NCBI GenBank assembly: GCA_950295325.1
Contig: OX485806.1
Span: 11,224,001-11,288,000, forward strand
DNA: 64,000 nucleotides
DNA from: Polytrichum commune
Lineage: Eukaryota; Streptophyta; Polytrichopsida; Polytrichales; Polytrichaceae
Direction: 5' to 3'
Shown here: in pieces, positions 2,929 through 40,396 of the stretch
How the letters are laid out: each line of letters opens with the position of its first letter
Position numbering within the stretch: the stretch's first letter is position 1
Notes under the pieces: generated by a model
Database searches by the model: none
The model's input: the letters and a program-made list of their open reading frames with translations, nothing else
Told to the model about the DNA's origin: nothing
Translations under genes and position numbers: made by a program

Positions 2929-3507
2929 TTTATGTGGCCAAGTCACCGGGAGTTTGATCCGGAGACTTTACGGATACCTCGACATGAGTATTGAAGGCAG
3001 CCCTACCTTACCTACCAACTATTAAAACTCCACAGCCTCCTCTATGCTGCCTGCCTATATAAAACCACAAGTGGTGCTTTTTAATCAATATATTGGCGGC
3101 ACCTTGGAAGCTAGTCCACAGCATGAGCTCATTGGAATTTTTGTGATTTTCAGCAGGCTCGAGATTTGATCCTAGTTCCGTTCACACTGCGCATCTCTTC
3201 ACAGTTAGGGTTTGCCCTAGTTTCCTGGTGACCGAGAGAGAGATACATATATATATATATACGTGTGGTGGTGTGGAGTCCAGGCACGGGCCCTCCATAT
3301 CTCACACTAGTTCCAATGTCAACCTCCTAATAATAATCCCCCTGGGAAGCCTGCTTATTGACACCCAGCTCCCAGGTGATGGGTTGGCAAGCTTGGCCTT
3401 TGAGAACCCCCCAGAGTCCCATATATACATGGGTGCCACTTATTAAATAACTCCTCATGTGCGGGTCACACGCGGCCTTTGAATGCACTCATCTCGTATA
3501 ACATACA
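2929..3507. other. Unassigned DNA with AT microsatellite
   Basis: Contains an (AT)n tract at about 3,247-3,262 beside GAGAGAGA. A 72-codon open frame crosses the microsatellite and shows no protein-like character. Confidence 0.5.
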
Positions 3508-25217: not shown

Positions 25218-26205
25218 AGATATTCTTGCCATCTCGTATCATGATGATGGTTTATGGGCAATGCACATGTATGGACTTGGCAATCATGAAACATGATGTT
25301 TGATTTATTTATTTTATTTATTTATTTTTGTCTTCTACATAGTGGTGTTATCTTTAAAAAAGAAAGAAAAATAGGAGTAACCATCATGTGTTTAGAAGTG
25401 CATCTTGGTTTTGATGTGCTAGCTGGAAATTTTGTTAGTCACAACAACTACTCTGGTTATAGGCAGACAAGACTTGCCAACTTAGATATTCTCACCACCT
25501 CGTAACATGATGGTATATGGCTATGCACGTGTTTGGACTTAACAATCATAAACCATGTTGTTGATTTTTCTCTCCCCTCTTTTACATACTAGAGTTATCC
25601 TTAAAGGATAGGAGCAACCATCATGTGTCTAGAGGTGCATCTTGTCTTTGGCGTGTTAGTTGAAGACTTTTAGTTTCAACAAATATGTTGGTCAAAGGGA
25701 GGCAAGGCCTACCAACTTAGATATTCTTGTCATCTTGTATCATGATGGATTGTGGGCTATGCACATACTCATACTCGACAATTGTAAACTTGCATGTTGT
25801 TTGATTTTCTCTCTTCTCTATTTTAGAGTTTTTCTTGTAGGGACATGATCAACCATCATGTGCCTGGAGATGCATCTTGTCATTGGTGTGTTGGTTGGAA
25901 TTTCTCCGGTTTCAACAAATACTTTGGTTATAGGTAGGCAAGGCCTACCAACTTAGATATTCTCACTGTCTTGTATCATGATGCTTTTTGGGTTGTGCAC
26001 ATGTTTGGACTCAGCAATCGTGAACCATGTTGTTTGATTTTTTTTTTTCCCTTTTTCTCTCTTCTCCATATTAGAGGTATTTTTAAAGGTACAAGAGCAA
26101 TTGTTGTGTGTGCGGAGGTGCATCTTGTCTTTGGTGTGTTAACCAGAAACTCTCCAATTCCAAAAATGCTCTGGTTACAAGTACGCAAGGTCCACTAACT
26201 TGCAA
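25218..26205 (+). repeat. Four-unit tandem array, ~235-bp period
   Basis: Units begin at AGATATTCT near 25,218, 25,484, 25,719 and 25,955 (spacing 266, 235, 236). Each contains GTATCATGATGG, ATGCACATGT, a CTCTTTT-rich tract, AACCATCATGTG and GAGGTGCATCTTG. Short frames inside repeat from unit to unit but differ in stops, so the array is non-coding. Confidence 0.88.
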
Positions 26206-27007
26206 CTCTCGAGAAGTTGCCAAGTTCTACATGTTTCCAAGAGAAAGCGATGAAACTCAGACCCACCTTGAACTAGCCTTTGCTCTTACCAAAATTAGGA
26301 GGAAAAACTCTTTGTACATGTGTTTATTTGTAGGTTCTAGCATGGAAGAGGCAAAAAAATGGTCTATGAAACTCTTGATATCTTCTTGTGTTTCGTCTTG
26401 TAGTTTACCTTTTTGAATTAACTCTATTATGCGGTACTTTGTAATTACTTTGATAATAAGGATGAATCACTTTCCTTTCACAACATTCATTGGTTGTGCC
26501 ACGCACCAGCTTTTACAAATGTTTAAGGTTAACCGACAAATCTTTGAAAGACATGGCCATTCTTGGTTTGATTGACCCATGTGTATATACGAACACTTAC
26601 ACAAAAGGTGGGCTTACATCAACATGTTAAAACGTCTCTATGTGGACCCTACTTTTGGATTCAAGCTCAAAGTTTTGAGTAGTTTTAGAATTGAGTGGAG
26701 TGTTTCCTTGCTTTGGGATTGAAAAAGATTTGGCAGTGGTGACCATGAGAATATCATATCATGGTGACTATGGCTACGATGCATTAGGAGCGGTGAACGA
26801 CATTGTTTGAGTGCCCTTTCTATCTTCTAACTTATGTGTTGTGTGGTGGTTGTGTGAACCAATTGTGGTATTTAGTGTAGGCCACTCTAATTTCACACTA
26901 AAGAATTGCCAAACACGTGTTTTACAAATTTTAAAAGGTTGACCGATGAATCTTTGAATTACATGCACATGTTTGTTTGTACGGATGATGCCAGTTGTCA
27001 TCCATGC
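26206..27007. other. Unassigned DNA with a short internal duplication
   Basis: A ~45-bp segment (TTTACAAATGTTTAAGGTTAACCGA) near 26,512 recurs, diverged, near 26,925. No gene recognised. Confidence 0.4.
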
Positions 27008-27555
27008 TAGGAACCATTTTACACATGTAACCAAGGGCCCTGAGAAAATTTGATTTAGGATTTCTTGTGCTCATTGTCGACAGTCTAAGATCATGACCAA
27101 GAGAATTTCACATCACTTTTTAAAAGACTTGGTCACCCGGGATATAAGGTGAAGCAAATTTGGATCGGGATGTAGTGGTTTAAATGAAAATATAAAATAT
27201 AAAACAACCAAGAATAAATATTTTCTATAAACTTTTTTTCTAAAATTATAACTTACAACTTGCAGTTTGCTCAAATTTAAATTACTTTAACATGGCCACC
27301 TTAGCTTCCATTGGGCAACCTATTTGGGTTCTCATGCAACAAAATCCGATAATGACTATTGGTCAAAACATTGTCCAATTATGGACATATAGGATTCTAT
27401 GTGAATTTCTCATCCATATTTTTGACATGCTCACCCATGGTCACTTCTATTTTCGTTGACTTTGTGTAAGATAAAGTGGGACTGCCACATTATCCAATGA
27501 GAGATTCTAGATAGTGGTGGTCATGGTTAGTGGTCACTAGTGTAAACATGTCCTA
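27008..27555. mobile_element. Tourist-like MITE, family M1
   Basis: The left end TAGGAACCATTTTACACATG and right complement TAGGACATGTTTACACTAGTG are inverted repeats. The interior matches the 9,496 copy, including CATGACCAAGAGAATTTCAC and GTGGGACTGCCAC. The target duplication is not clear. Confidence 0.7.
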
Positions 27556-28686
27556 AGGATGAAGTACATTAATTAGAGGCCCAATAAAGTTGAGACCCGT
27601 GTCAAATCTTCATGGACCTTGCTTTTGGACACTTGATTAGACTCAAGCTTAGGCTTTTGTTTCTCAAATTGGGTAGAATATGTTCATGACTCATAGTTGA
27701 CGAGATTTGACTTGAAAGAGGTGCCACAATAGCGTCACTTCATTTTAATCACGCTTGGGATTTGGACCCTAGTGTAAACTTCCTTGTGTCCAAATTATTG
27801 TTCTTAACTAGGTGGAGTCCTTGTTTTAAGAGTTACTTTGGTCGCGGACCTAAGGTATGCGGGTGTCATTTGGTTCTTCTTGATCGGACCCCTGTATTTG
27901 ATTGGTATGTAGTTCGGTGAGGATCAAAGAACAAACACCATAAAGACACATGTTCAAAACAGATTGGACTACGTCTTCAAACATTCTCAACCACTCTACA
28001 CTCGATTGTGAACACAATTCGGAGGACTTTATGTACTCACTTCAACAATCAACAAATGTGCAAGCTTAATAACCATAACAACATCAGGGGAGGTCCGATT
28101 TCCAATCTGATTTTTGATGATGCTTTCATCGTAGATTTGCTAATACAACACAAGTTTTGTTATGTAAACATAATACTACGTAGAATTTCGAGAACATGAG
28201 AAACGAACCGAATGCAATAACACCCACATACCTTCCTTAATGTCAACCCACCCTAAATGCCATAATCCGTGGAGCACGGGAAGTTACCACCTTCCATAGT
28301 CAGAGGTCAAGGCTGTTGTTGCGTACCACCTGCATGCTTTGTTTATGCTTCCAATGTTGTCCATCGCCCTTAACTCAAAATATGCCAAACTTTTTGCGTT
28401 TTACAAGTGAGGGAATTCTGACAACAGGGCCGTCAAAACCCTTGCACGTGGTGAACCGGGACACCAAGTGGGTTGGGTCAGCTGCCACATTAACCCACGG
28501 CAAAGTTTTAAAATAACAACATTTTAATCACTTTATTACCTCTGTGTAGGGTGATGTTTAATAGCACTTACTTACTTCCCAAGAAGAGGGTGAAAACGCT
28601 GATTGCAATGTAGAGGCTGAAGATTGTTCTTCAAGCCAGATTAACACCTAAATCGAGATCAAAGACCCTGAATTGGTATAGCCAGC
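27556..28686. other. Unassigned DNA
   Basis: No gene, RNA or element ends recognised. The plus-strand frames of 63-66 codons have no family resemblance. Confidence 0.4.
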
Positions 28687-28689
28687 TTA

Positions 28690-29220
28690 TGGGGCATTCC
28701 CACCTGACATTAGTTAGAAGTAGTTTTAGTCTAAAAGCGGTTTTAGTTATCTAGGGTTCACACATACGGCTCTTTTTAGTGCCAAGCCTAGGTGGCAAAT
28801 GATGTGGCATGGCTTAAAAGTGGAGGTTTTAAGCCTCAACCACCGACCCTCCCATCGGTACCTAAACATGAGGCAAGAATATAGGAACTTTAAAAGTGTT
28901 GCCTCCCACCCTTGTGATTGGTTGCTTTTTAGTCTTAGCTATGAGGGCACGAGGAGCTTCATTAACAAAAACCGATGGTAAGATAGGTGAGTAGTAAGGC
29001 ATTCGGGGATGGGACAAAAACTACCCAACATTCATTGCTTGGTAGATAAAACCATGAACATGTGTGAAAGCTACTTAACTAAAACCTACTTGAAAATCTC
29101 CGGAGCAAGTTCTTGTAGGTGCATTGGGATAGTCGGATGCCTCCGCTATAACCGAGGGAGCTTTACCCGGTTTTTAGAAAATACTTTGGGTCTTAACTAA
29201 AGTCAGGTGGGAATGCCCCA
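28690..29220 (+). mobile_element. Tourist-like element, twin unit 1
   Basis: The ends TGGGGCATTCCCACCTGACA (left) and their near-perfect complement (right) form inverted repeats of ~28 bp. TTA flanks the unit at 28,687-28,689 and 29,221-29,223. This is the PIF/Harbinger (Tourist) pattern. The internal 63-codon frame at 29,009-29,200 has a counterpart in unit 2, but this follows from sequence identity; no known domain is seen. Confidence 0.85.
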
Positions 29221-29223
29221 TTA

Positions 29224-29739
29224 TGCCCCCTCGATCCCCACTTGACATTAGCAAATAACCAAAGACTTCCCTAAAACCCGGGTAAAGCTCCCTCGGTTAT
29301 AGCGGGCACGTCTGGCCATCCCAATGCACCTACAAGAACTTGCTCCGGAGATTTCCAAGTAGGTTTTAGTTAAGTAGTTTTCACACATGTTCATTGTTTT
29401 ATCTACCAACCAATGAATGTTGGATAGTTTTTGTCCCATCCCCAAATGCCTTAATACTTACCATCGGTTTTTGTTAATGGAGCTCCTCATGCCCTCATAG
29501 CTTACGACTAAAAGCAATCAATCACAAGAGCGGGAGGCAACACTTTTAGAGGTCCTACATTCTTGCCTCATATCTAGGTACCGATGGGAGGGTCGGTAGT
29601 TTTAGCTTAAAACCTCTACTTTTAAGCCATGCCACATCATTTGCCAACTAGGCTCGGCACTAGATAATGTCGATGGTGTGGAGGCTCATTTTTAAGAACC
29701 CACTTTTAGGCTTAGCTAATGTCAAGTGGGGAGGGGGCA
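29224..29739 (-). mobile_element. Tourist-like element, twin unit 2 (opposite orientation)
   Basis: This is an inverted, diverged copy of unit 1. Ends are TGCCCCCTCGATCCCCACTT and the complement TGCCCCCTCCCCACTTGACA. TTA lies at 29,221-29,223 and 29,740-29,742, so the left target copy is shared with unit 1. The minus-strand frame at 29,248-29,445 mirrors the plus frame of unit 1. A truncated third relative lies at 873-1,092. Confidence 0.85.
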
Positions 29740-29742
29740 TTA

Positions 29743-30240
29743 TACTAGGATGAAGCACCAATAAGCTTATAACTTGGGGTGTACTATTTTAATCGCACCT
29801 TTCATTGTAGGTGATGAGAATTGAAATCTATGTCTTGAGCGAGGGTAAAGTCTCCTGACAGCTACTGAGGGGAGCGTGAAAATGGTGAGAAACATTGTAG
29901 GGCCTAGAGAATCATAATTTTCTATTTCAAGCTAACTTTAGCTCTGAGCTGAATGAAAGACTCTAAATTAGTTCCATGGTTTTAGACTAGGATGAATAAG
30001 CCACAAACATATAGGGGGCGAGTGTTAACCCTTAGGTTGACATGAACGGTCACAATGTTGTTTTATGTAGTAAATACCAAGAATTATCGAACAGAGGGTC
30101 TCTTTTTGTGGGTTATCATCATACGAATCCGCCGACAATTGCAGCAAGCAAGGCCATCCATTCACATTGCAATGATTAATGTCAAGTAGACATCCAAACG
30201 AAAGTGCCTCTCAACCCACAAAACCCACCACACCCACCAC
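29743..30240. other. Unassigned DNA
   Basis: No gene recognised. Leads into the protein-like segment that begins at 30,241. Confidence 0.4.
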
Positions 30241-30903
30241 GTGAGAGATACACCAACACTAGAGGGGGAGCGCATTGGTCACCTCTTTGCAAACTTTGCA
30301 CAAGGCAATGATCAACTTGTCCACACACTTACCAATTTACACAATCTTGTGGGAGACTTGCAATATTCATCAAATGAACACTGGCTACATGCAATGGAGA
30401 GGGATACCTACATCCTTATGCTCAAGAAACATGTGGCAAAGTTGGATTCTCAAGCTTTGGATAGAGCTAAACAAGAACTAGCTCGCACACAAGTAGAGCT
30501 CAAAGTTATGAAGCATAATGCAAATTTGGCCAAGGAGTCTCACTACCATAGCCACTTTTATTGCGTTCCAAGAGGAGCAAACTAAATTTGACAAACGCCA
30601 AGCTTAACAGAATCTAACAATACCTAACCGAGCTCTTTGTTGCAGCAAGAATGTGACCAAGCTCTTCTCTCAACACTCAACGCCCTCACAACATGCATCC
30701 GAGGAGGTATACACACAAACAACATTAACAACTTCTTTGAACAATGCTACATACCTTTAATGCCCATACATGCATGCATGCAACAAATCCACCTGATAGC
30801 TATCAAATATGTCACCCTACTTGCTCAACAAAAGGAAATTGGAAAACCAGCCCCCAATAATTTATGCATAACCAAATACAAACAACAAAATCCCAACAAC
30901 TAA
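30241..30903 (+). pseudogene. Broken coding-like segment with coiled-coil character, family unknown
   Basis: A 114-codon frame (30,241-30,585) begins MRDTPTLEGERIGHLF and includes the heptad-like run RAKQELARTQVELKVMKH. A shifted frame continues with FQEEQTKFDKRQA, and an 88-codon frame (30,637-30,903) starts LQQECDQALLSTLNAL. Read together they look like one Glu/Lys/Gln-rich helical protein cut by two or more frameshifts. It could be the first ORF of a LINE (an RNA-binding coiled-coil protein), because LINE ORF2 remains lie 3 kb downstream on the same strand, or a gag-like or captured host fragment. No catalytic motif is present. Confidence 0.4.
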
Positions 30904-30959
30904 TCTTACAACACGTTGCTCAAACCCACTCAAACCCATAATGTAATCCCATAATTTTG

Positions 30960-31070
30960 ATAATGGGATAAACAAACTCACATGAGACACCCCTTGAGAA
31001 TCGAACCCAACACATGTTGGAATAAGTCATGACCACATGACCACATGCCCTCATAACACACACCTTTGAG
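30960..31070 (-). mobile_element. Possible tRNA-derived SINE head
   Basis: On the minus strand a box A-like TGTGGTCATGTGG (about 31,035-31,047) is followed by box B GGTTCGATTCT (about 30,995-31,005). Downstream is a short repeated TGGGTTTGAG tail (about 30,920-30,945). It differs from the SINE at 12,985. No target duplication was found. Confidence 0.4.
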
Positions 31071-31334
31071 ATACACATCAATAACAAAACTTATAATCTC
31101 CCCCAACTGGGCCTAAAGCGCCATTGCCCAATAACTATATGGACCACCTTCAACATGAGGCAATAGCATTTGTCATATAGCCCTTCTAAGTAATCCGCTC
31201 CAAGTTCACATATGAGCTTGCAGCTATGATCAAGGTGAAGCGTCCCTCATTCCCGCCAACACCAACGGTTGGCATTGTCATTTTGTCCATGTGGCACATG
31301 AGACAACACAAACTACACGGACAACACGTCACCA

Positions 31335-31770
31335 TCAAAAGGACATGGCAATTACATCCCACACCTCACTGTTGTCAAAATCAATGTATGCAAGGTCGGA
31401 CTGCAACCTTATCCTAGATTTGGTTAATTTCAATGCCTCAACTATACTCCAACCAGTAAATGAAGGATAAGGGTGTATTGGAGGATGTTGGGATAGAGTA
31501 ACTTGGTGAAACAACCTCATGTACATAGGGTTGTAAGGGGTTTTAGGTTGATTTGATGGGAATGTCAGGGGAGTGGAATCTCTACCTTTAGATGAAGACA
31601 TTGATGTGTTCGAAAGATCAACATAAACACATAAATCATCTCCCGAGTTTGACAAAACAAACACACTATCATCGTTACGCTCCAATTTAAAAGTGGCAAG
31701 CCTTGGGATTTGAATAGTTGACAACAATTCATTTAAATCATATTTGTCTATATTAATGCCTTTAGGAGAT
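31335..31770 (-). pseudogene. Coding-like fragment of unknown family
   Basis: A 130-codon frame extends upstream of its first Met to about 31,770 in the same frame. It contains IPRLATFKLERNDDSVFVLS, NSGDDLCVYVDLSNTSM, then a Ser/Pro/Thr-rich stretch and RIRLQSDLAYIDFDNSEVWD. The composition is that of a real protein (balanced, a beta-rich start followed by a linker). I recognise no domain. It lies on the same strand as the Rep fossil, ~0.7 kb downstream of it, so it could be a second gene of the same element; that is inference. No start or complete end can be defended. Confidence 0.4.
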
Positions 31771-31900
31771 GTTTATCATAGGAAGGCATCATATACTCCT
31801 ATATAGGGTTGACAACATGCTATTTTATGACAAGATTGCACAAGAAATATTGTAAGAGGCGCCATCTTCTTAAATTAGACCAATCAAAGAGGGATTAGGG

Positions 31901-32300
31901 TTGAATGAAGATAGAGACCTTCTATGCGCACCCAAAAACCAAAATGTCTTTGAGAGGGGGGGGGGTACAAGATTTCCCCCACACATAGCAAGTAAGGAGG
32001 TTGTAAATGTTAACATAAAAAAATGTGACACCCATAAAGAGAAACGAAAGAAAATTTGGTTTGAGGTACTCCAAAAGAAAACAATTGGAGAGGTTGATGA
32101 ATAGTGTTGTAGAAGGAGGTCTAGAAGGCACAACACGTCAACTACAGTCCCCATCCATTGCTCAAACTCTTGATGATATTAACGTTGTCCCAAAGATTGA
32201 GTAATGCAACATTTTTATGGGAGATTGCAAGGACGTCATCGACACGATGCATGGCTCCTCACAAATTGAAAATATAGGGAAATATAAAAAAGGTAAGCAT
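31901..32300 (+). pseudogene. Weak coding-like fragment
   Basis: A plus-strand frame (31,901-32,104) reads CAPKNQNVFERGGG...KEKRKKIWFEVLQKKTIGEVDE. In another frame it seems to continue with EGGLEGTTRQLQSPSIAQ and FMGDCKDVIDTMHG to about 32,300. A G10 run lies inside it. It faces two minus-strand fragments. No family recognised; coding status is uncertain. Confidence 0.3.
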
Positions 32301-32429
32301 TATTGAAAGAATTATTATAGAGAGTAATGAATTATTCAAGACATTAATTGTCTTTTGTAGCATCTTTATCAAATTAAGCAGCATCCAATAAGGTTGTATA
32401 GCAATGTGTGGTTTTCATACCCACAGGCA

Positions 32430-33700
32430 TCAGTGAACCTTAAACCCATATGTGGCGGCCATGATGCCTTTTGCAGGGTCCCGGGTGTGACTAGTTGTTG
32501 GAGAAGCAACATCATGAATAACATGACCATCAATAGGAGGAGCAACATGAGCTACAACAGATGTGTGACCGGAGCAATCACTAAGTGCCTCCGAAACACC
32601 TTCGCGAGCATCTTCCGCCATCCACACGCATTGCAAAGCATCTAACTATGCATCCATTCCATCCCCATCCATGACAACATGCACATTTTTGTGTAGAGTT
32701 TGATTTATTTCTTGCTCATCGCACGATGGTCATGTGCAATTTGTTGAGAATTAAAATATGTCATGTTTGAGTTTATCGTGATTGTATAAAAAAACATTTG
32801 AGATGTGTTCCATATCAATATCATGGGGAGTCATGATGATTTTCCATATGGAGACCACCCGCTTGATATCCATACCCATGGACCTCAACGGAATCACCCA
32901 TGTGGGATTCGGGTAAAATTGCCCACTTTTGCAAATGTGATACAAAGTGGCAATGAGAGTAACAACCAAATGCTTCTTCATACAGATGTGCGCCCATTGA
33001 TGGGCCCTTTGCGAATTCCTAATATGAGAAAGACTCACTTGATTGTTCAAGCCCACCTTTACAAACTTTGCATACTCCATTTCACCGTCATTCATGTCCT
33101 ACACCGATAAATTGTGATGAACAAACTCAAAATGCTACTCTCATTGTCCTTCATACAATACCCCCATCATGCCCTTGAAGGTATGCAAACCCTCATCCCT
33201 CAACTTCTTATATGAGACAACATGACATGTTGGCAGACTCTCATCCCATCCCAAATAAACCTTGATTTTCTCATTCAACACCAACACACTAGTGAATTTC
33301 CCCTTGACCATCATTTGGAAATGCTTGTGAGTCAACCTCCCACCCCTCTCCATGGAACACAACTTGACAATACAATGGTTCTCTATAAACCTCCTCAAAT
33401 TCACAAGAAGATTGACATCCACATTCATCCCTCCCACGGCAATAATTACCAATGCCTCGATATATTTTAAACAAGCATGGGTTCTTTCTTGACCTACAGA
33501 ACAAGAAAGGGCTCACATTCTTGAGGCCATTGCCAAAACTCAAGAACATGAGAAAACACAACACCCTCTTTGTGTAGCTCTTTGTGCAGTTGTATGCGCT
33601 AATTACAACGTCCCAACATCGTTGTTGAAAGACAACTCCATCCTCAACAACCGTATGCAATTCCAACTATAGTTACCCATGCAAATTGTTTTGGATTATT
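32430..33700 (-). pseudogene. Replitron-type Rep (single-tyrosine HUH-class) transposase pseudogene
   Basis: On the minus strand, in order: KYIEALVIIAVGGMNVDVNL (about 33,400-33,470); ERGGRLTHKHFQMM, whose HKHFQ (33,315-33,329) supplies an H-U-Q metal-binding motif; GLHTFKGMMG; YCMK (33,149-33,160), a YxxK motif carrying the single nucleophilic Tyr; HFEFVHHNLSV (33,102-33,134); then a helical part with VSLSHIRNSQRAHQWAHICM and GQFYPNPTWVIPLRSMGMDI; and a tail ending near 32,430. HUQ plus YxxK is the motif pair of CRESS-type Rep proteins and of Replitron transposases, which nick and join single-stranded DNA. No helicase domain follows, unlike Helitrons. A one-base length change in a G run separates GMMG from YCMK, and further shifts and stops occur (one at 33,099-33,101), so it is inactive. 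Element ends were not found. Assignment to Replitrons rests on motif order and recalled family resemblance. Confidence 0.8.
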
Positions 33701-33899
33701 ATTTTTAGCCTCCATCAACCGGGCTACGGGTTCCCCACCCCTAGCCCATTTGCTAAGCAATCCCCCACTACCCTAAGCCTTTGACAGGGCAACCACCCAA
33801 AAAAAATACCATCTACCCGTGGAACCAACCCATGTTGGACATGTAAATTTATCTAGTTGTCGTCCCCCACCCGATGCCTAACAAAGGCCCAAATCTTGT

Positions 33900-36340
33900 C
33901 ATCTTTTGTATGATCATGTTCCTACATACATTAGAGTGGCATATGGCAAGGCATGTAAATAAGATCATACGCACTTGATTTTAGTAAAAGCTTGTGATAA
34001 GGTAGATTGGGTAGTTATGTTCTAAGTCATGGAGAAACTTGAAATGCCTTCACCAATAAGATTAGAATGTTGTTTTACGACGCAACTGTTTCAATTAATA
34101 TCAATAACCAAGTGACCGAACCATTCGGAATCCAGACAGGCATTCGTCAGGGTTGCCCCTTAGCTCCCTATTTGTTCATACTCACGGTAGAGGCACTCAA
34201 CGCAACAGTTAAATATGCAACATGAATTGGAAACCTCAAAGGCATTACCCTTCCTCAATGCAACTCCCAATGAATCATTAGCCAATATGTTGATGACACG
34301 TCATTTACAGTTAAGGCGGTAGAAACTAGTGTTGACAACATCATAGGGATTCTACACAAATTTGGAAGTGCCTTTGGTTTAGATATTAATTGGCATAAGA
34401 GTGTAGCGTACTGCTGCAGCCGAGGACGACCGCCAAGATGGGTGGGAAAATACTAGTGGAAGTGGGCTGCCAATGGAGACCTGTCAAAAGTGCTCGGCAC
34501 ACTGTTTGGTCTAAAACTCGAACTACAAGATGTTGACCAATTTTTGGAAAACAAGATCAAGAGAAAACTTAAGTACTGGAGCTCCACAAATCTGTCACTT
34601 GCATGACGTACCCTCATTATGAATGAAGTTATGATGTCATCCCTCTAGTACTTCATCGTTGAATGGGTTGGGTCTAAAAGAGTTTTGGGGAAAATAAAAG
34701 CTCTACTCCGCAAGTACTTATGGTATGGACATGAAAACACTGCCAGAGCACGTGTTAGTTGGGATAACTACACGATGCACGAATGTAAGTGGCCTTGGCC
34801 TTATTTCGCCAGAGGATGCAATGAAATTACTTATGAGCAAATGGATTGTTCAAGCTCTTCTCCCCGGCATGTCAAACCTTCAAATTATCCTCCAATATCG
34901 CATTACGAAGTTGCAACCATCTAACCATGGGCCATGGGGTCCATCCTCTTTGTGGCTCTTCACCCCAAATTTCTCTACCAAAGGGAGATCTAGAGTTTGG
35001 CACCACATTACTCAATCATGGAAGACGATGGCCAATACAGTTGCATATCTTTCTTCATCAATTGCAGAGGACATTCTACAAACTAACCTTTGGTGGAAGA
35101 CAAAATATCAATGCCTCCATTTTGACATCACTATGAGCAAAGCCATTATCTTCTACCATAAAGGATTAAGGTATCCCAAGACATTTGGGACCCTAGGCGA
35201 TATTATTTCCTGAATTGGGACGCCGCCAAAGTCGAATTCTCCCTTGAAGAGGTTTACCATGATTTTTGGGTCAAATTAATTGAATTCTACAGACCTTTTG
35301 GAGACAAAATGCTCAACCAATAGCACGTTCAACTCACTTCTCATGAATGGGTAGGCCTGTATATGAATGGGTTTGCGTTAGCTACCTCAAGGAATTTAGC
35401 CATGGTCTTGTTCAGTTTACTGATGAGTTCATGAACACTTTCCCTAAATCTATGGTGGGTCCGCAATATTTCACTTTGACATAGATGAAACCTAACATTG
35501 AGACTACAACACCACTTACGGCATTCTCCGGTTGGATGGCACGAGTCAGGGTACATAGTCTTTTGAGAGGGAGCAACCAAACCAAATTCAATTTGTTCTT
35601 TGGGAAACTTGATCAACTTTTTTTTGACCCAACCCATTGGTGGTGGCTGGAGGTTACACCTTTTTTTTGCATGTTTGGCCAAAGAAGGGAGGAAATGAAT
35701 CACCAAACAAATGGCTCTGAAAAAATCGATCTTGCATAAGTGGTGAAATGAAATTCCTCCCTCCACTGCCCCTAAGTGGAATATTATATGGCACAAAACT
35801 AAGGTACAAAAAGAGGTTGTTTCCTCTGGTCAATCATTCATAAGGCAATGGTGCTTAATGAATGGCGAGGTAAAATCTTGGCGGAGATTGACAAAAGTTG
35901 TGGTCGAGTCGGCGGAGCATAGATTCTACAATTGCCCACTCGCTCAACAAGGGTGTCAAAAGAGGGAATTTTGGTCCACATAAATCCTTCTTTAGGATGC
36001 ATTGATCAACTACGTTGCAAGACACTCAAACGATTCAATCGCATTTGGTTCTTCTTGAGGAATGGTATCCCATGGATTAGCTGGCGCCAACGAAATGATC
36101 CGGTGATTAATAATTTGCAATGGCATGTTGAGAAAACTTGCCTGCCATTTGGGACGCCTTGCAAGACTATGGTAGGATCGAGTGGAAGCGGACTCTCTCG
36201 GACTTGGAGAAGGCCCCATATGTTGCTTACCAAGACATTTTGAACAAATATGACTCAACTTGGGGGGGGGGGGTCAAAGGCCTTATTGTGACCTGGAGCA
36301 ACTTAGTTGTCACTTGGAAATTTGATTCCAAAACTTAACA
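33900..36340 (+). pseudogene. LINE (L1-like) ORF2 pseudogene, reverse transcriptase to C-terminal zinc region
   Basis: The plus strand shows VKACDKVDWVV and VMEKLEMPSP (finger region), then RQGCPLAPYLF (34,145-34,177), the catalytic YVDDT box (34,286-34,300, both Asp intact), FGSAFGLDINWHKS and LNxxMMSSL-type thumb sequence. Farther on are GLGLISPEDAMKLLMSKWIVQ (about 34,790-34,850) and a zf-RVT-like SAEHRFYNCPLAQQG (about 35,910-35,955). The family copies its RNA into DNA at nicked targets. The endonuclease half is absent, so this is a 5'-truncated copy, usual for LINEs. At least six in-frame stops occur before 34,800 and many frameshifts after it. No poly-A tail or target duplication was located. 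Confidence 0.9.
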
Positions 36341-37299
36341 TTACAATCTTTGCAGTTGTTGCATTGATGAGACAAGCTAAACCAACATCCATAAACATAT
36401 GTGGAGTATGAATTTCTCACAATAGGGCCACATACCTTATGTAGCAAGGTATGTGGGCCTTAATCGGTTACCTACATTTGAGTGATATATGAATATTAAT
36501 GGACACCAAATTAAATTGGCTAACATAGTATGACTACACAATCCAATTTCATCTTACAACATGTTTTTTCAATGACGAACACAATTGGTAAGTCCTATGT
36601 GATCATCACTTAATAAGGAATGGAATATTCACTTTGACTTCTTGTAACTTTTGCATCTCAATATCAATTTGAAACTTGAAATGATAATCATCATGACTTG
36701 TAATTGTAACTTGGATAATATTATTCCCAATTCAATCCAATGGTCAAGATTGTATGTGGAGTTGGAAGTGTCCACAATATGACAACATGCCTTTACAAAA
36801 AAAAAAATCTCCTACTAATGCCCCCATGGTCTTATTTTTCTTGGCATATACCCACCTCATGGCCTTGGTATGTAGCCAAGGTGGAGACCCTATTAGTATG
36901 TACATTGTTTTGAGTTTCCGCCAACACATTCATGAAAGTCTCTTGTGATTTGACTATGAACATAAGGAGATAGTTCCTCTTATATATGGTTGGGGCTCAT
37001 AAGAGGTCACCAAGGTTGAGGAGGGAGGCAAGTTTCCTTGCTTGTGGTCATTACATGTTATTTGAATCATATATCTTTAGTATTTTGGGCAACACCCCAA
37101 ACCAAGCATGTCCCACATATGAACATGGTATTTATGAAAACATCACATAACATGCAAAAATGTCACAAATGCCGTTTTCTCGAATACAAGGAAAGTTGGC
37201 TAGAATTGGTTTTTTGAGACAGCTTTGCCAACTATATCTAGATGTATTTACAAAATGTTAGTAGCATGTGTAAGTGATAATGATGGAAGAAGGCTTTTT
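36341..37299. other. Unassigned DNA with a short hairpin
   Basis: An inverted repeat at 36,424-36,460 (AGGGCCACATACCTT / AAGGTATGTGGGCCT) has a 7-base loop. Otherwise no gene is recognised. Confidence 0.45.
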
Positions 37300-37412
37300 A
37301 TATCATGATTGTTATGTTCGTCATTGTTACTTCAAACACTCTTGATAGCAATCAAAACATAACAATCATGATATTTTATTTTATTTTTTAAAAAAAAAAC
37401 CCTCTTCTTTAC
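37283..37412. mobile_element. Small inverted-repeat element
   Basis: ATATCATGATTGTTATGTT (37,300-37,318) is perfectly complementary to 37,356-37,374. The outer parts GAAGAAGGCTTTTT and AAAAACCCTCTTC also pair after an A/T-rich insertion. About 130 bp in all; no target duplication defined. Confidence 0.6.
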
Positions 37413-37626
37413 TCTATGAACTTGTGCCCCATATAGAATTAGTTTCAAAATGCAAATTCTTTAAAGTTGAAATGTAGTCCACAAGACGAGAAATTGCGTC
37501 AGCCTTGGGAGAAAAAACCGTCACGTTCACATATACTATGTCTATGGCACTTGACTGAAACACGACACTCTCTTGTGCGACCAAACCTGTCATATTAAAG
37601 GGGGAGGACAATTCGAATTTTGGTCC
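37413..37626. other. Unassigned DNA
   Basis: A 65-codon minus-strand frame lies here, without family resemblance. Confidence 0.35.
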
Positions 37627-37845
37627 TTGAAATTGAGGTGCACTCAGTATGGGTTTTGTGGACTAGGCGGCCTTGAAGAATGCAAGGACAACCTATTTCT
37701 TTAAGTTGGGCGGAGCGGGCAATGTCTTTTGGTCGGGTTCAAAAGAAGTTTTATGGGACCACCTGAGGGTTGCGGTTTGTGGGCCTTGGCCCTTATCTTA
37801 TCAAGAGACCCCTTCCCAAATAGCTTGTTGGGGGTGTTTGAACGT
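37627..37845 (+). repeat. Dispersed repeat pair, copy 2
   Basis: Same-orientation copy of 21,438-21,655. Contains in-frame stops where the other copy is open. Confidence 0.7.
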
Positions 37846-38204
37846 CCAACATAATGTAACTTACCACTCCAAATCCTTTACATTATTTCACCTTCGCCCA
37901 TGGATGAGTTTACGTAGACACCACAAAACTCTAACCCACATTTGTCAGCTTGGGTTCAGTAGTGTCTTACAAGTAACCTCATCCATTGTTTGCTAAAGGG
38001 GCTATAACAAAAACAAATCCAGTTGAGAGTTGATTCATTTCAACTCAAACTTGCAAAATTAATTTGGTATCTATTATGCCATTTTTGAAGCCAAATTGAC
38101 TCTATATCTATATAGAGCTATAAAATCTCTGCGCGTTGTGGTTTGACCTTCCTGTTCCATGAGGTTAAGGACCATCCTATAAATTTTACCAAGGGCAGTA
38201 GGAA

Positions 38205-38430
38205 ACAATGATTCAGGATTTCTTGTGGTCATGGTTGGTAGTCCAAAAACCATGACAAAGAAAAATCCACATTACTTTCCAAAAGCCTTGTCATGGGACA
38301 TAGTGTGAAGTGGACCTAGACCTACATGAAAAAAATGTTAGTAAGATAATAAAATCTATTCCAAATATGGGTAATTAGGTTGCCCTTGCGAATAGGTTGT
38401 CTCATGTGGGTCACCTTGGGTCAAAACTAG
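38205..38430 (+). mobile_element. Partial Tourist-like MITE, family M1
   Basis: CAGGATTTCTTGTGGTCATGG, CCATGACAAAGA and GACATAGTGTGAAGTGGACC match the left half of the copies at 9,496 and 27,008. Both terminal repeats are missing. Confidence 0.6.
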
Positions 38431-38875
38431 ATCACAAAAACGTACAACTTTGTTGATTCATCCGTATGCGACCATGATACTAGAAACAAATATTGCAGTT
38501 TTTAACCTATGATAATAACTATTTAAAATAGTGTGGAACATTGATAAATTTAGTGTGGGGCAACTTAATCACAAATATATGTTGGTGTAGACGTGTGGAA
38601 GCTCTAGCTTGAAATTGGGAAAGGGCTACTAAGGGCTAATTTAGACTATGGCAAAGAAGTGCACCGGTCGGTCAAGAATTTTGACCCAAGACAAGGTTAC
38701 TCAAGGCAATGGTTGGATAAAAAAAATAGACAAGATGGACAAACAAAACAAAAACAAACAAACAAAAAAAAACCTCAAGTTGGAGTTCTTCACGGGCCAC
38801 ATTTCTTATCAAAGGTTTTGAGGTTGCCCTAGAAACTTGACCTCCGGAGAGCTCCCCCAGCCCAAACACAAAAAC

Positions 38876-38910
<35 letters not shown>

Positions 38911-38990
38911 AAGTTGCCAAGTTGGCAGTGATGTCAAATTTCCACCCATGCTTGAAGTTCTCCACCAAAGAAATCTTCGCCACAGTGTAA
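38431..38990. other. Unassigned DNA with a 32-base A run
   Basis: A homopolymer of 32 A at 38,877-38,908 is preceded by A-rich AAACAAAC words. It could be a retroposon tail (plus-strand element ending there), but no body or target duplication was recognised. The minus-strand frames across it are poly-Phe artefacts. Confidence 0.5.
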
Positions 38991-40396
38991 ACCCCGATTG
39001 GTGAAGAACCAATTTCCTCACCAATCACATTACCCCATTCCCCTTAAAACTCTTAACCGATGCACTTCTTCACTATAGTCCGCACTGGGCCTAAGAGCAT
39101 TCGCAATGCCCCCGGCAACGGCTCCCGCCAATGGCGCTTGCGGGCGTGGCAATTTCGGTGTGCCTCAACGGGCTCGGGAAGACTCCCGTTAGTCTCTCGT
39201 GTCTCGCGAAATGCCTCCCGGTCTCGGCAAGTTTTCTCCCTTTGCCGTGAGCTTTGTTCCTCCCGCTAGACGCAATCAACGCCCAGGATGGCAGTCGTAG
39301 AGGCGGGAAGGCCAAGGATTATTTTTGGTCTTTGTTTCGTGTCTTCATGCTAGCGTGATTTTTTTCTTTTCGTTTTGTGTCTTTATGATGGATTTTTTTC
39401 CCCATCTTCACTCTTAATCACAATCACATTAGTCACATTAGTGCCTTGCGACTAATGTGACTAACGCCCTCACACGGTATTAGTTACATTAGGCACATTA
39501 GTGCAGACCTTGGAGAAGTGCCAAAATAACTATCGTTAACTAGACCTTTCCAATAAATTTTAGGGAACAACTATAGTCAACTAGAAAATTCAAACCGATT
39601 TGAAGAATAACTATAGATAACTAGAAAATTTCCAAATATTATTATACATTCGAAGAACTTTGCCTATTGATTTGCTTCAATTGAGGGTCTTTAATATGCT
39701 CAGGCCATTGAGGATCATCAAGAAACGCCTTTATATGATTATTACAATAGATTGGGGTCAATGTTATACATCACAATGTTGGGTTCTAGGACAATCTCCA
39801 TATACACCACCAACACAAATAACACACTAGTGACACTACAACATTACAATAGAATTCCGTGAACATGTTGTGCTCAACTTTAGCTAACTAGATATTTAGT
39901 TAACTAAATATAACTATACTTAACTAGAGTTTTGGTAGACTAAAATTAAAACAACTATAGTTAACTACATATTTTGGCAGGTCAAATCATGAACAACTAT
40001 AATTATGAAAGGCGACTAGTTAACTAATAATTGAATTAGTTGGTGAGTTATCCAAGGTTTGCATTAGTGCGACTACTCTATGGGAGTTGGCCCATGCCTC
40101 CGTGGCTACCCCGCCCACGCCACCGTGGCCGGCCCGCGATGCCACCATGGCCGTGGGAATGGGTAATGGGACTGCATGGTGGGTGCCGCATTGAGGCTAC
40201 TACCCAACACCTCCCCACGCCACTCGCCCGCAGTGCCCCAGGGGGCCTTCAAATGGCCTTTGACGGGCGCATTTGACGGGCGTGCATTGGCGATGCTCTA
40301 AGTATACACACACACACAATTAAATATCAATCCAAGCATAAAGCTATGAATATTGACTACTCGAACGCCGCAACCGAGCCATTGCAATTTGGTGCA
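38991..40396 (+). repeat. ~205-bp duplicated unit, copy A, interrupted
   Basis: 38,991-39,094 matches 40,416-40,516 (GGTGAAGnACCAATTTCCTC, CCAATCACATTACCCCAT, ATGCACTTCTTCAC, GnGCCTAA). 40,302-40,396 matches 40,517-40,626 (ATACACA, AAAGyTATGAA, CTCGAACGCCGCAAC, GGCCATTGCAATTTGGTGCAA-like). Between the two halves lies the PIF-type element. Copy B is uninterrupted. Confidence 0.85.
39095..40298. mobile_element. 1.2-kb PIF/Harbinger (Tourist-type) non-autonomous element
   Basis: Ends are GAGCATTCGCAATGC (left) and complement GAGCATCGCCAATGC (right). TAA lies at 39,092-39,094 and 40,299-40,301. The sister duplication at 40,416 shows the uninterrupted site CCTAAG with a single TAA, confirming the boundaries. 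Both ends are G+C-rich (about 39,095-39,310 and 40,080-40,298), while the middle is AT-rich with many AACTATAGTTAACTAG words shared with M3 at 12,101 and 45,118. Short frames near both ends lack transposase motifs, so mobility would have depended on another element. Confidence 0.92.

Follow-up and report, generated by a model that had tools for sequence, protein, structure and literature searches.

The stretch of DNA analyzed here (the window) is 64,000 nucleotides long and lies at positions 11224001-11288000 of contig C4 in an assembly of 408 Mb and 64 contigs. On its minus strand it carries the broken remains of a transposase gene, and a fragment of a LINE lies on the plus strand close to it (Table 1). 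No RNA families or tRNAs were found in the window. The original prediction had described, in this order on the minus strand, an ERGG..HKHFQ metal-binding motif, a YCMK motif with one tyrosine and a conserved C-terminal region, all in broken frames, and each of these can be read directly. The minus strand from 33512 to 33141 contains SMERGGRLTHKHFQMMVKGKF, and within this frame the part from ERGG to HKHFQ is ERGGRLTHKHFQ (33350-33315). YCMKDNE begins at 33160 in a frame shifted by one from that of HUQ, in which the same place reads VLYEGQ, and the C-terminal stretch occupies 33098-32751.

Table 1. Parts of the Replitron copy and the neighbouring LINE fragment, in window positions
Feature	Positions	Strand	Basis
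Replitron copy, well-supported extent	32469..33897	-	5' edge to last base homologous to the nearest relatives; aligns with L034 down to 32483 and with L035 down to 32469; 5' module model
Tentative 3' end	32215..32468	-	AATCTCCC, then ATAA (for AATA) at 32218-32215; by eye from the copy alignment
5' terminal module	33820..33897	-	Model R1, 59.9 bits (window copy is one of the 7 seed rows); edge common to relatives
Broken transposase frame	32430..33530	-	ATG at 33530 shared with other copies; stops and frame shifts; pieces homologous down to the open frame 32645-32430
HUH endonuclease domain, stops read through	33069..33437	-	Pfam PF21859, 45.3 bits; HFQ at 33323-33315
YCMK (the only tyrosine motif), frame-shifted	33149..33160	-	Read from the sequence; conserved across copies
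Replitron C-terminal domain	32790..32951	-	Pfam PF21860, 36.3 bits, E 7.7e-9
Neighbouring LINE fragment (reverse transcriptase), outside the Replitron	33973..34764	+	RVT_1 pieces; 5' side cut at 33973; genome matches; homology to L058-L060

Comparison with Replitron transposase profiles had been proposed as a check of the predicted Replitron identity, and both protein parts match, one to each of the two Replitron families in Pfam. The window piece 33437-33162 taken alone matches Replitron_HUH with an E-value of 1.1e-5 and 26.2 bits, which is 2.3 below the Pfam cut-off of 28.5. When the profile is run on the genome and the stops are read through, the window copy passes the cut-off and covers HUH positions 6-128. 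The C-terminal piece is above the Pfam cut-off of 27 for Replitron_C, and the run of this profile on the genome locates the domain at the same position. The last open frame of the gene (32645-32430) matches two other loci, L034 (E 3.8e-12) and L035 (E 5.8e-11), and the coding end of the family lies beyond this frame, in the window copy perhaps near 32350 as placed by eye. Based on these sequence matches the window copy is a dead Replitron of at least 1.43 kb (33897-32469). The interval of 32430-33700 originally assigned to it holds on the 3' side, where homology to the nearest relatives ends between 32469 and 32483, and is slightly too short on the 5' side, where the edge lies at 33897.

The window copy belongs to a large family. 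The Replitron_HUH profile has 74 matches in the genome, 71 of them above cut-off (two of the 71 only together with neighbours in frame), Replitron_C has 32 matches, all above cut-off, and neither profile has a match in any of the 14 control genomes. When the window copy is used as a protein query, at least 150 scored matches are found with its N-part (the best 150 of 236 candidates) and at least 150 with its C-part (the best 150 of 231), counts to which one copy can contribute several matches. We compared 50 copies, that is, the window copy and 49 loci chosen from the best matches, which are hence no random sample; L004 was left out as contained in L037, and L001, L002, L007, L008 and L010 as repeats of the window copy, L012 and L013. 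Among the 46 of these copies that are readable at the HUQ triplet, the histidine is kept in 35, the phenylalanine in 42 and the glutamine in 38, and 38 also keep a histidine two places ahead of the first one. The tyrosine of YxxK is kept in 40 and the lysine in 37 of 44 readable copies, with the window copy scored as a tyrosine miss owing to its frame shift. Motif reading across the 50 copies gives only one tyrosine motif for the family.

Of the 50 copies, 38 span 85% or more of the domain region, and L013 (C1:54.37 Mb) is the only one of these 38 that is free of stops in a single frame. It has a 289-codon open frame (1989-2855) with HUQ, YxxK and both Pfam domains (Replitron_HUH 57.7 bits, Replitron_C 35.2 bits, both above cut-off), and no other Pfam family matches it at E-values up to 10. 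Its first codons, including the upstream start, sit in a different frame. The remaining 49 copies, including the one in the window, are broken or incomplete in the stop and frame test. Absence of HUQ and YxxK from relatives had been named as an argument against the prediction, and L013, the copy nearest to intact, carries both; the route to intact relatives that was expected from this locus did not open, as none of the 50 copies is intact from its start codon and L013 comes closest. Pairwise DNA identity of the coding bases averages 61% and reaches at most 83% (1,033 pairs that share at least 80 codons; stretches beyond frame shifts may be misaligned), and there is no recent copy pair in the 50-copy sample. 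Between copies, the differences per site are 0.34, 0.31 and 0.53 at codon positions 1, 2 and 3, and because they concentrate at third positions the transposase protein was once under selection. Judged by its copies, the Replitron family of this genome looks old and dead. Rearranged copies were also seen: L024 (C1:48.24 Mb) has three tandem copies of the Replitron 3' module, 141 bp apart, at oriented positions 3081-3480, and L055 (C4:12.14 Mb) has a 5' module near its C domain with no N-part between them, which is possibly an internally deleted, non-autonomous copy.

One question that is raised by the HUH domain is whether the element could be a Helitron that has lost its helicase. Helitrons have two tyrosines and a PIF1-type helicase. 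They share with the window element an HUH-type nicking enzyme, and they exist in the same genome, where we found 34 Helitron_like_N matches (33 above cut-off) and 45 PIF1 matches. The window element, however, has neither of their two hallmarks, and its family shows one tyrosine motif together with a Replitron C domain. None of the 74 Replitron HUH matches has a PIF1 match within 10 kb (the nearest is at 21 kb), whereas PIF1 lies no more than 3 kb away from 22 of the 34 Helitron_like_N matches. Since PIF1 is absent near the 74 HUH matches and the positive control comes from the same genome, the family is set apart from Helitrons, as the original prediction had it, and a Helitron without its helicase is an extremely improbable reading. 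Several of the Helitron matches have long open frames; the Helitrons of this genome may be younger than its Replitrons, an impression only.

Another possible origin is the Rep of a CRESS-DNA virus that became integrated as an endogenous viral element. The order of HUQ and YxxK would then be that of a viral Rep, and the two resemble CRESS Rep motifs II and III; one CRESS Rep also appears at rank 40 (E 0.17) in a Foldseek comparison with viral models. In CRESS-DNA viruses the Rep domain is followed by a superfamily-3 helicase. On Pfam, L013 has no match to a Rep family or a helicase domain of viruses at E-values up to 10, and a search of viral contigs, made with a single protein and suited to close relatives, confirmed no relative. 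The dispersed copies with common ends fit a transposon, and we give the viral origin very little credence. It could also be proposed that some copy, with L013 as the best candidate, is a host gene derived from a Replitron and kept by selection for a cellular role. The open frame of L013, with both motifs and both domains, speaks for such a gene, but its first codons are out of frame, the other 49 of the 50 copies (that of the window included) are broken or incomplete, and a lone open copy would be expectable by chance in a large old family. Domestication of this kind is very unlikely, if a little easier to accept than the two other readings.

The kinship in fold with CRESS-type Reps that was suggested for this protein did not find support in our models, which are of low confidence. 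Two AlphaFold2 models of L013 were made from alignments of 32 and 67 rows, with a mean pLDDT of 60.5 and 61.5. Model 1 is predicted as strand-helix-strand-strand-helix-strand-strand, as one would expect of an HUH domain. In Foldseek searches of the PDB and of viral models with these low-confidence models no match reached an E-value of 0.001 or better, and the CRESS Rep mentioned above had 0.17. For model 1, IS200/IS608/ISDra2 transposases are in the top ten with a probability of up to 0.99 and E-values of 0.025 or worse, and for model 2 the first IS200-type transposase is at rank 44 (E 2.2). In VIA, unrelated ferredoxin-like folds come first (Z up to 9.1), the IS transposases have Z of 7.2-7.5, and no CRESS Rep is among the matches listed. 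The family profile has no match among PDB chains at E-values up to 10. The likeness to IS200/IS605 consists in the one tyrosine and in the ferredoxin-like fold predicted in model 1, while the fold match is no better than that to unrelated ferredoxin-like folds and no PDB chain is matched by the family profile.

The 5' end of the element can be seen by comparison with L034 and L035, its nearest relatives here, with which it has the sequence ahead of the gene in common as far as a sharp edge at 33897. The 5' module of the family opens with AATATATGGG and continues G-rich; the window copy has AAGATTTGGG. From seven 5' ends, with the window copy as one seed, we built the sequence-only model R1, which has 19 matches in the 50 copies at E-values up to 5, including the seven seeds. 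The non-seed matches with E below 0.001 are in L057, L055, L050, L046, L049, L016, L003 and L047; that of L003 is on the other strand, that of L057 follows its own gene, as though a further copy started there, and that of L055 lies near its own C domain, as if the N-part had been deleted. Twelve 5' edges were counted (the window copy, L034, L035, L025, L020, L009, L031, L057, L055, L050, L049 and L047), with L046 and L016 excluded for a missing start, L003 for its strand and L040, L041 and L022 as weak. All 12 open with AA and 10 have an exact AATA, the exceptions being L031 (AATG) and the window copy (AAGA), and this count leans towards AATA because seven of the 12 ends were seeds of R1. By eye, GACC stands ahead of AATA in four of the 12, directly in L047 and L049 and, in L034 and L035, separated from it by one T. 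RNAalifold, applied to 13 copies, predicts no pairs and so no conserved hairpin in the 5' module; single copies of the module have short inverted repeats.

The 3' end was less easy to place. Many copies share a coding end, read by eye as LYVPxRGL..EEAF-stop, and an iterated profile of it finds 28 of the 50 copies at E-values of 1e-5 or better, the window copy not among them. When these 28 are aligned with the window copy, conservation continues to TTAATTAAT..ATCTCCC-AATA and then drops from 0.67 to 0.42. Of the 29 aligned copies, 14 show this end pattern with a shuffle fraction not above 0.05, a partly circular figure because these copies themselves supplied the pattern, and 12 have no recognisable 3' end. 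For the count of 3' bases we used 16 copies and left the window copy out: the 14 with the pattern, with L011 moved by eye to its CACCC-AATA, and L034 and L015, which have fractions of 0.07 and 0.43 and were placed by eye. Eleven of the 16 have an exact AATA and five differ from it by one base (GATA, AACA, AAGA and twice AAAA), and this count too leans towards AATA, the ends having been placed by eye or with a pattern that contains it. AATA ends 133-216 bases beyond the point where the 3' module begins in the 16 copies, and 180-216 bases beyond it in 14 of them. L020, in which both ends were found, is 1,641 bp long.

In the window copy, ATCTCCC-ATAA can be placed by eye so that it ends at 32215, at 195 bases from a hand-set start and within the range of the sister copies. 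The 3' end of this copy is missed by the coding-end profile and by a profile of the 28 other copies built with the window row removed, the best rows of the latter all being shuffled controls, and the pattern script favoured a place other than 32215. A full length of 1,683 bp with the 3' end at 32215 is our guess for the window Replitron. The sister copies have AATATATGGG on the 5' side and CTCCC-AATA on the 3' side, with AATA at both. The two end sequences of sister copies are not inverted copies of one another, and inverted repeats of at least 16 bases are absent from window positions 31900-34100. The repeat at the two ends is direct, with an exact part that is mostly 4 bp, and by eye CCAATA (6 bp) in some copies. 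As to the short terminal direct repeats that flank alignment was predicted to bring out, AATA is exact at 10 of the 12 counted 5' ends and at 11 of the 16 counted 3' ends; the exact part stays mostly at 4 bp, and the placement is partly motif-based.

Other searches for an end were also made. Greedy extension of the 3' side (26 copies) and k-mer enrichment in the 3' flanks gave no end, and the k-mer TATGTCCC that came from the latter was set aside as part of the shared coding end and no terminus. A repeat of the 5' start in the 3' flanks of 44 copies had a mean best score of 7.4, against 7.8 in shuffles, and when the 5' boundary of each of 11 single copies was compared with its own 3' region only one (L049) had a shuffle fraction below 0.05. 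The motif CATATGGG-N5-AAT occurs with the same spacing ahead of the 5' ends of L020 (1628) and L009 (1033) and in the 3' region of L011 (2190; all oriented positions). It was rejected as a terminal repeat; the 15-base pattern has four exact matches in the genome (1 in the control), of which those in L020 and L011 are two, and the CATATGGG of the window copy (32452-32445) is at chance level, with 2 found and 2.85 expected.

One catalytic tyrosine and no helicase domain are the defining traits of Replitrons, which were reportedly described in Craig 2023 (PNAS), the name being said to date from that year. In the family studied here there is an HUH-type endonuclease with HUQ, one YxxK tyrosine and a Replitron C domain, and the sister copies have a conserved tail. 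According to a review, Replitrons have direct terminal repeats of 5-11 bp and no terminal inverted repeats, are 0.9-4 kb long and make a target duplication of 2-8 bp; among land plants it gives as hosts non-seed plants other than hornworts (PMC10741241). As far as tested, our family agrees with this in its PF21859 and PF21860 domains, its single YxxK, the lack of a helicase nearby, its size and the absence of terminal inverted repeats; the sister copies have a putative short direct repeat at their ends, and the host is probably a non-seed plant. It differs in having its own ends (AATATATGGG and CTCCC-AATA), in an exact repeat that is mostly 4 bp and thus shorter than the 5-11 bp of the review (PMC10741241), and in that every sampled copy is old and decayed. 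We are highly confident that an autonomous Replitron left the window element behind as a dead copy, and a badly decayed copy was in this case rightly recognised from raw DNA alone. As for the view that Replitrons are little studied in land plants, the same review already reports them in mosses, liverworts, lycophytes and ferns (PMC10741241). The window element is a further member of the known Replitrons, and its family may already be in Craig 2023. By comparing copies we obtained the family's two ends and the short repeat found at each, and the family could be clearly distinguished from the Helitrons that share its genome; with these ends, young or non-autonomous copies can be sought in related mosses.

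How such an element might have moved can be proposed from the HUH superfamily, in which, according to PMC13231165, a tyrosine cleaves single-stranded DNA and stays joined to it through a 5' phosphotyrosine. By analogy, a metal held by the HUQ residues would let the tyrosine nick one strand at the AATA of the element end and leave a 5' phosphotyrosine link. The nicked strand would then be peeled off, host synthesis would replace it, and the peeled strand would be pasted at a target that contains AATA, which would leave AATA on both sides. The family may have multiplied in this way and lost its active copies, after which point mutations, indels and nested insertions would have eroded it. AATA itself may be a target duplication or a repeat borne by the element. 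A stronger version is that AATA was the sole insertion site of this moss-lineage family, preferentially with GACC ahead of it, and the AATA on either side would then be a fixed target and not element sequence; this is a tentative idea that we consider rather improbable. If it is true, the family would be a site-choosing single-tyrosine transposon that, like IS200/IS605, inserts beside a fixed short sequence, and it would be one kept only as fossils throughout this genome.

The LINE fragment beside the Replitron contains two RVT_1 pieces on the plus strand (34043-34225 and 34274-34456; E 1.4e-4 and 2e-4), each below the Pfam cut-off. At least 40 other rows of the genome match it (40 were scored out of 91 candidates), and at least 14 of them begin exactly at 33973. 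The LINE copies L058-L060 extend upstream of this point, and their upstream part was not found within window positions 26001-40000, except that L060 230-363 matches 27893-28025, which is outside the shared LINE part. On this evidence the LINE fragment was cut at 33973, which is 75 bp from the Replitron edge at 33897. The original prediction that a Replitron had inserted near the LINE is thus right about adjacency; as to insertion, the LINE is itself cut, and either order of events accords with the evidence.

The locus had also been put forward as a marker of a nonseed-plant lineage, and the photosystem data fit a non-seed plant. Contig C8 bears psaA and psaB and is taken as the plastid. Its psaA, compared with PDB chains, scores highest with 8htu (1723.9 bits), 6l35 (1703.6) and 9lut (1698.1), followed by 7wfd (1651.1) and others; we take 8htu and 6l35 to be moss photosystem I and 7wfd to be from a seed plant. 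Seven contigs of the assembly are 42-78 Mb in size and would fit seven chromosomes. Elsewhere in the window, at 28689-29732, there is a large near-palindrome with further short inverted copies, which looks like a fold-back element. Its arms pair 28986-29214 with 29234-29462 (229 nt, 88%) and 28759-28982 with 29457-29680 (224 nt, 86%), and a peptide related to it (TMNMCESYL..) is also present in L009, beside another Replitron copy.
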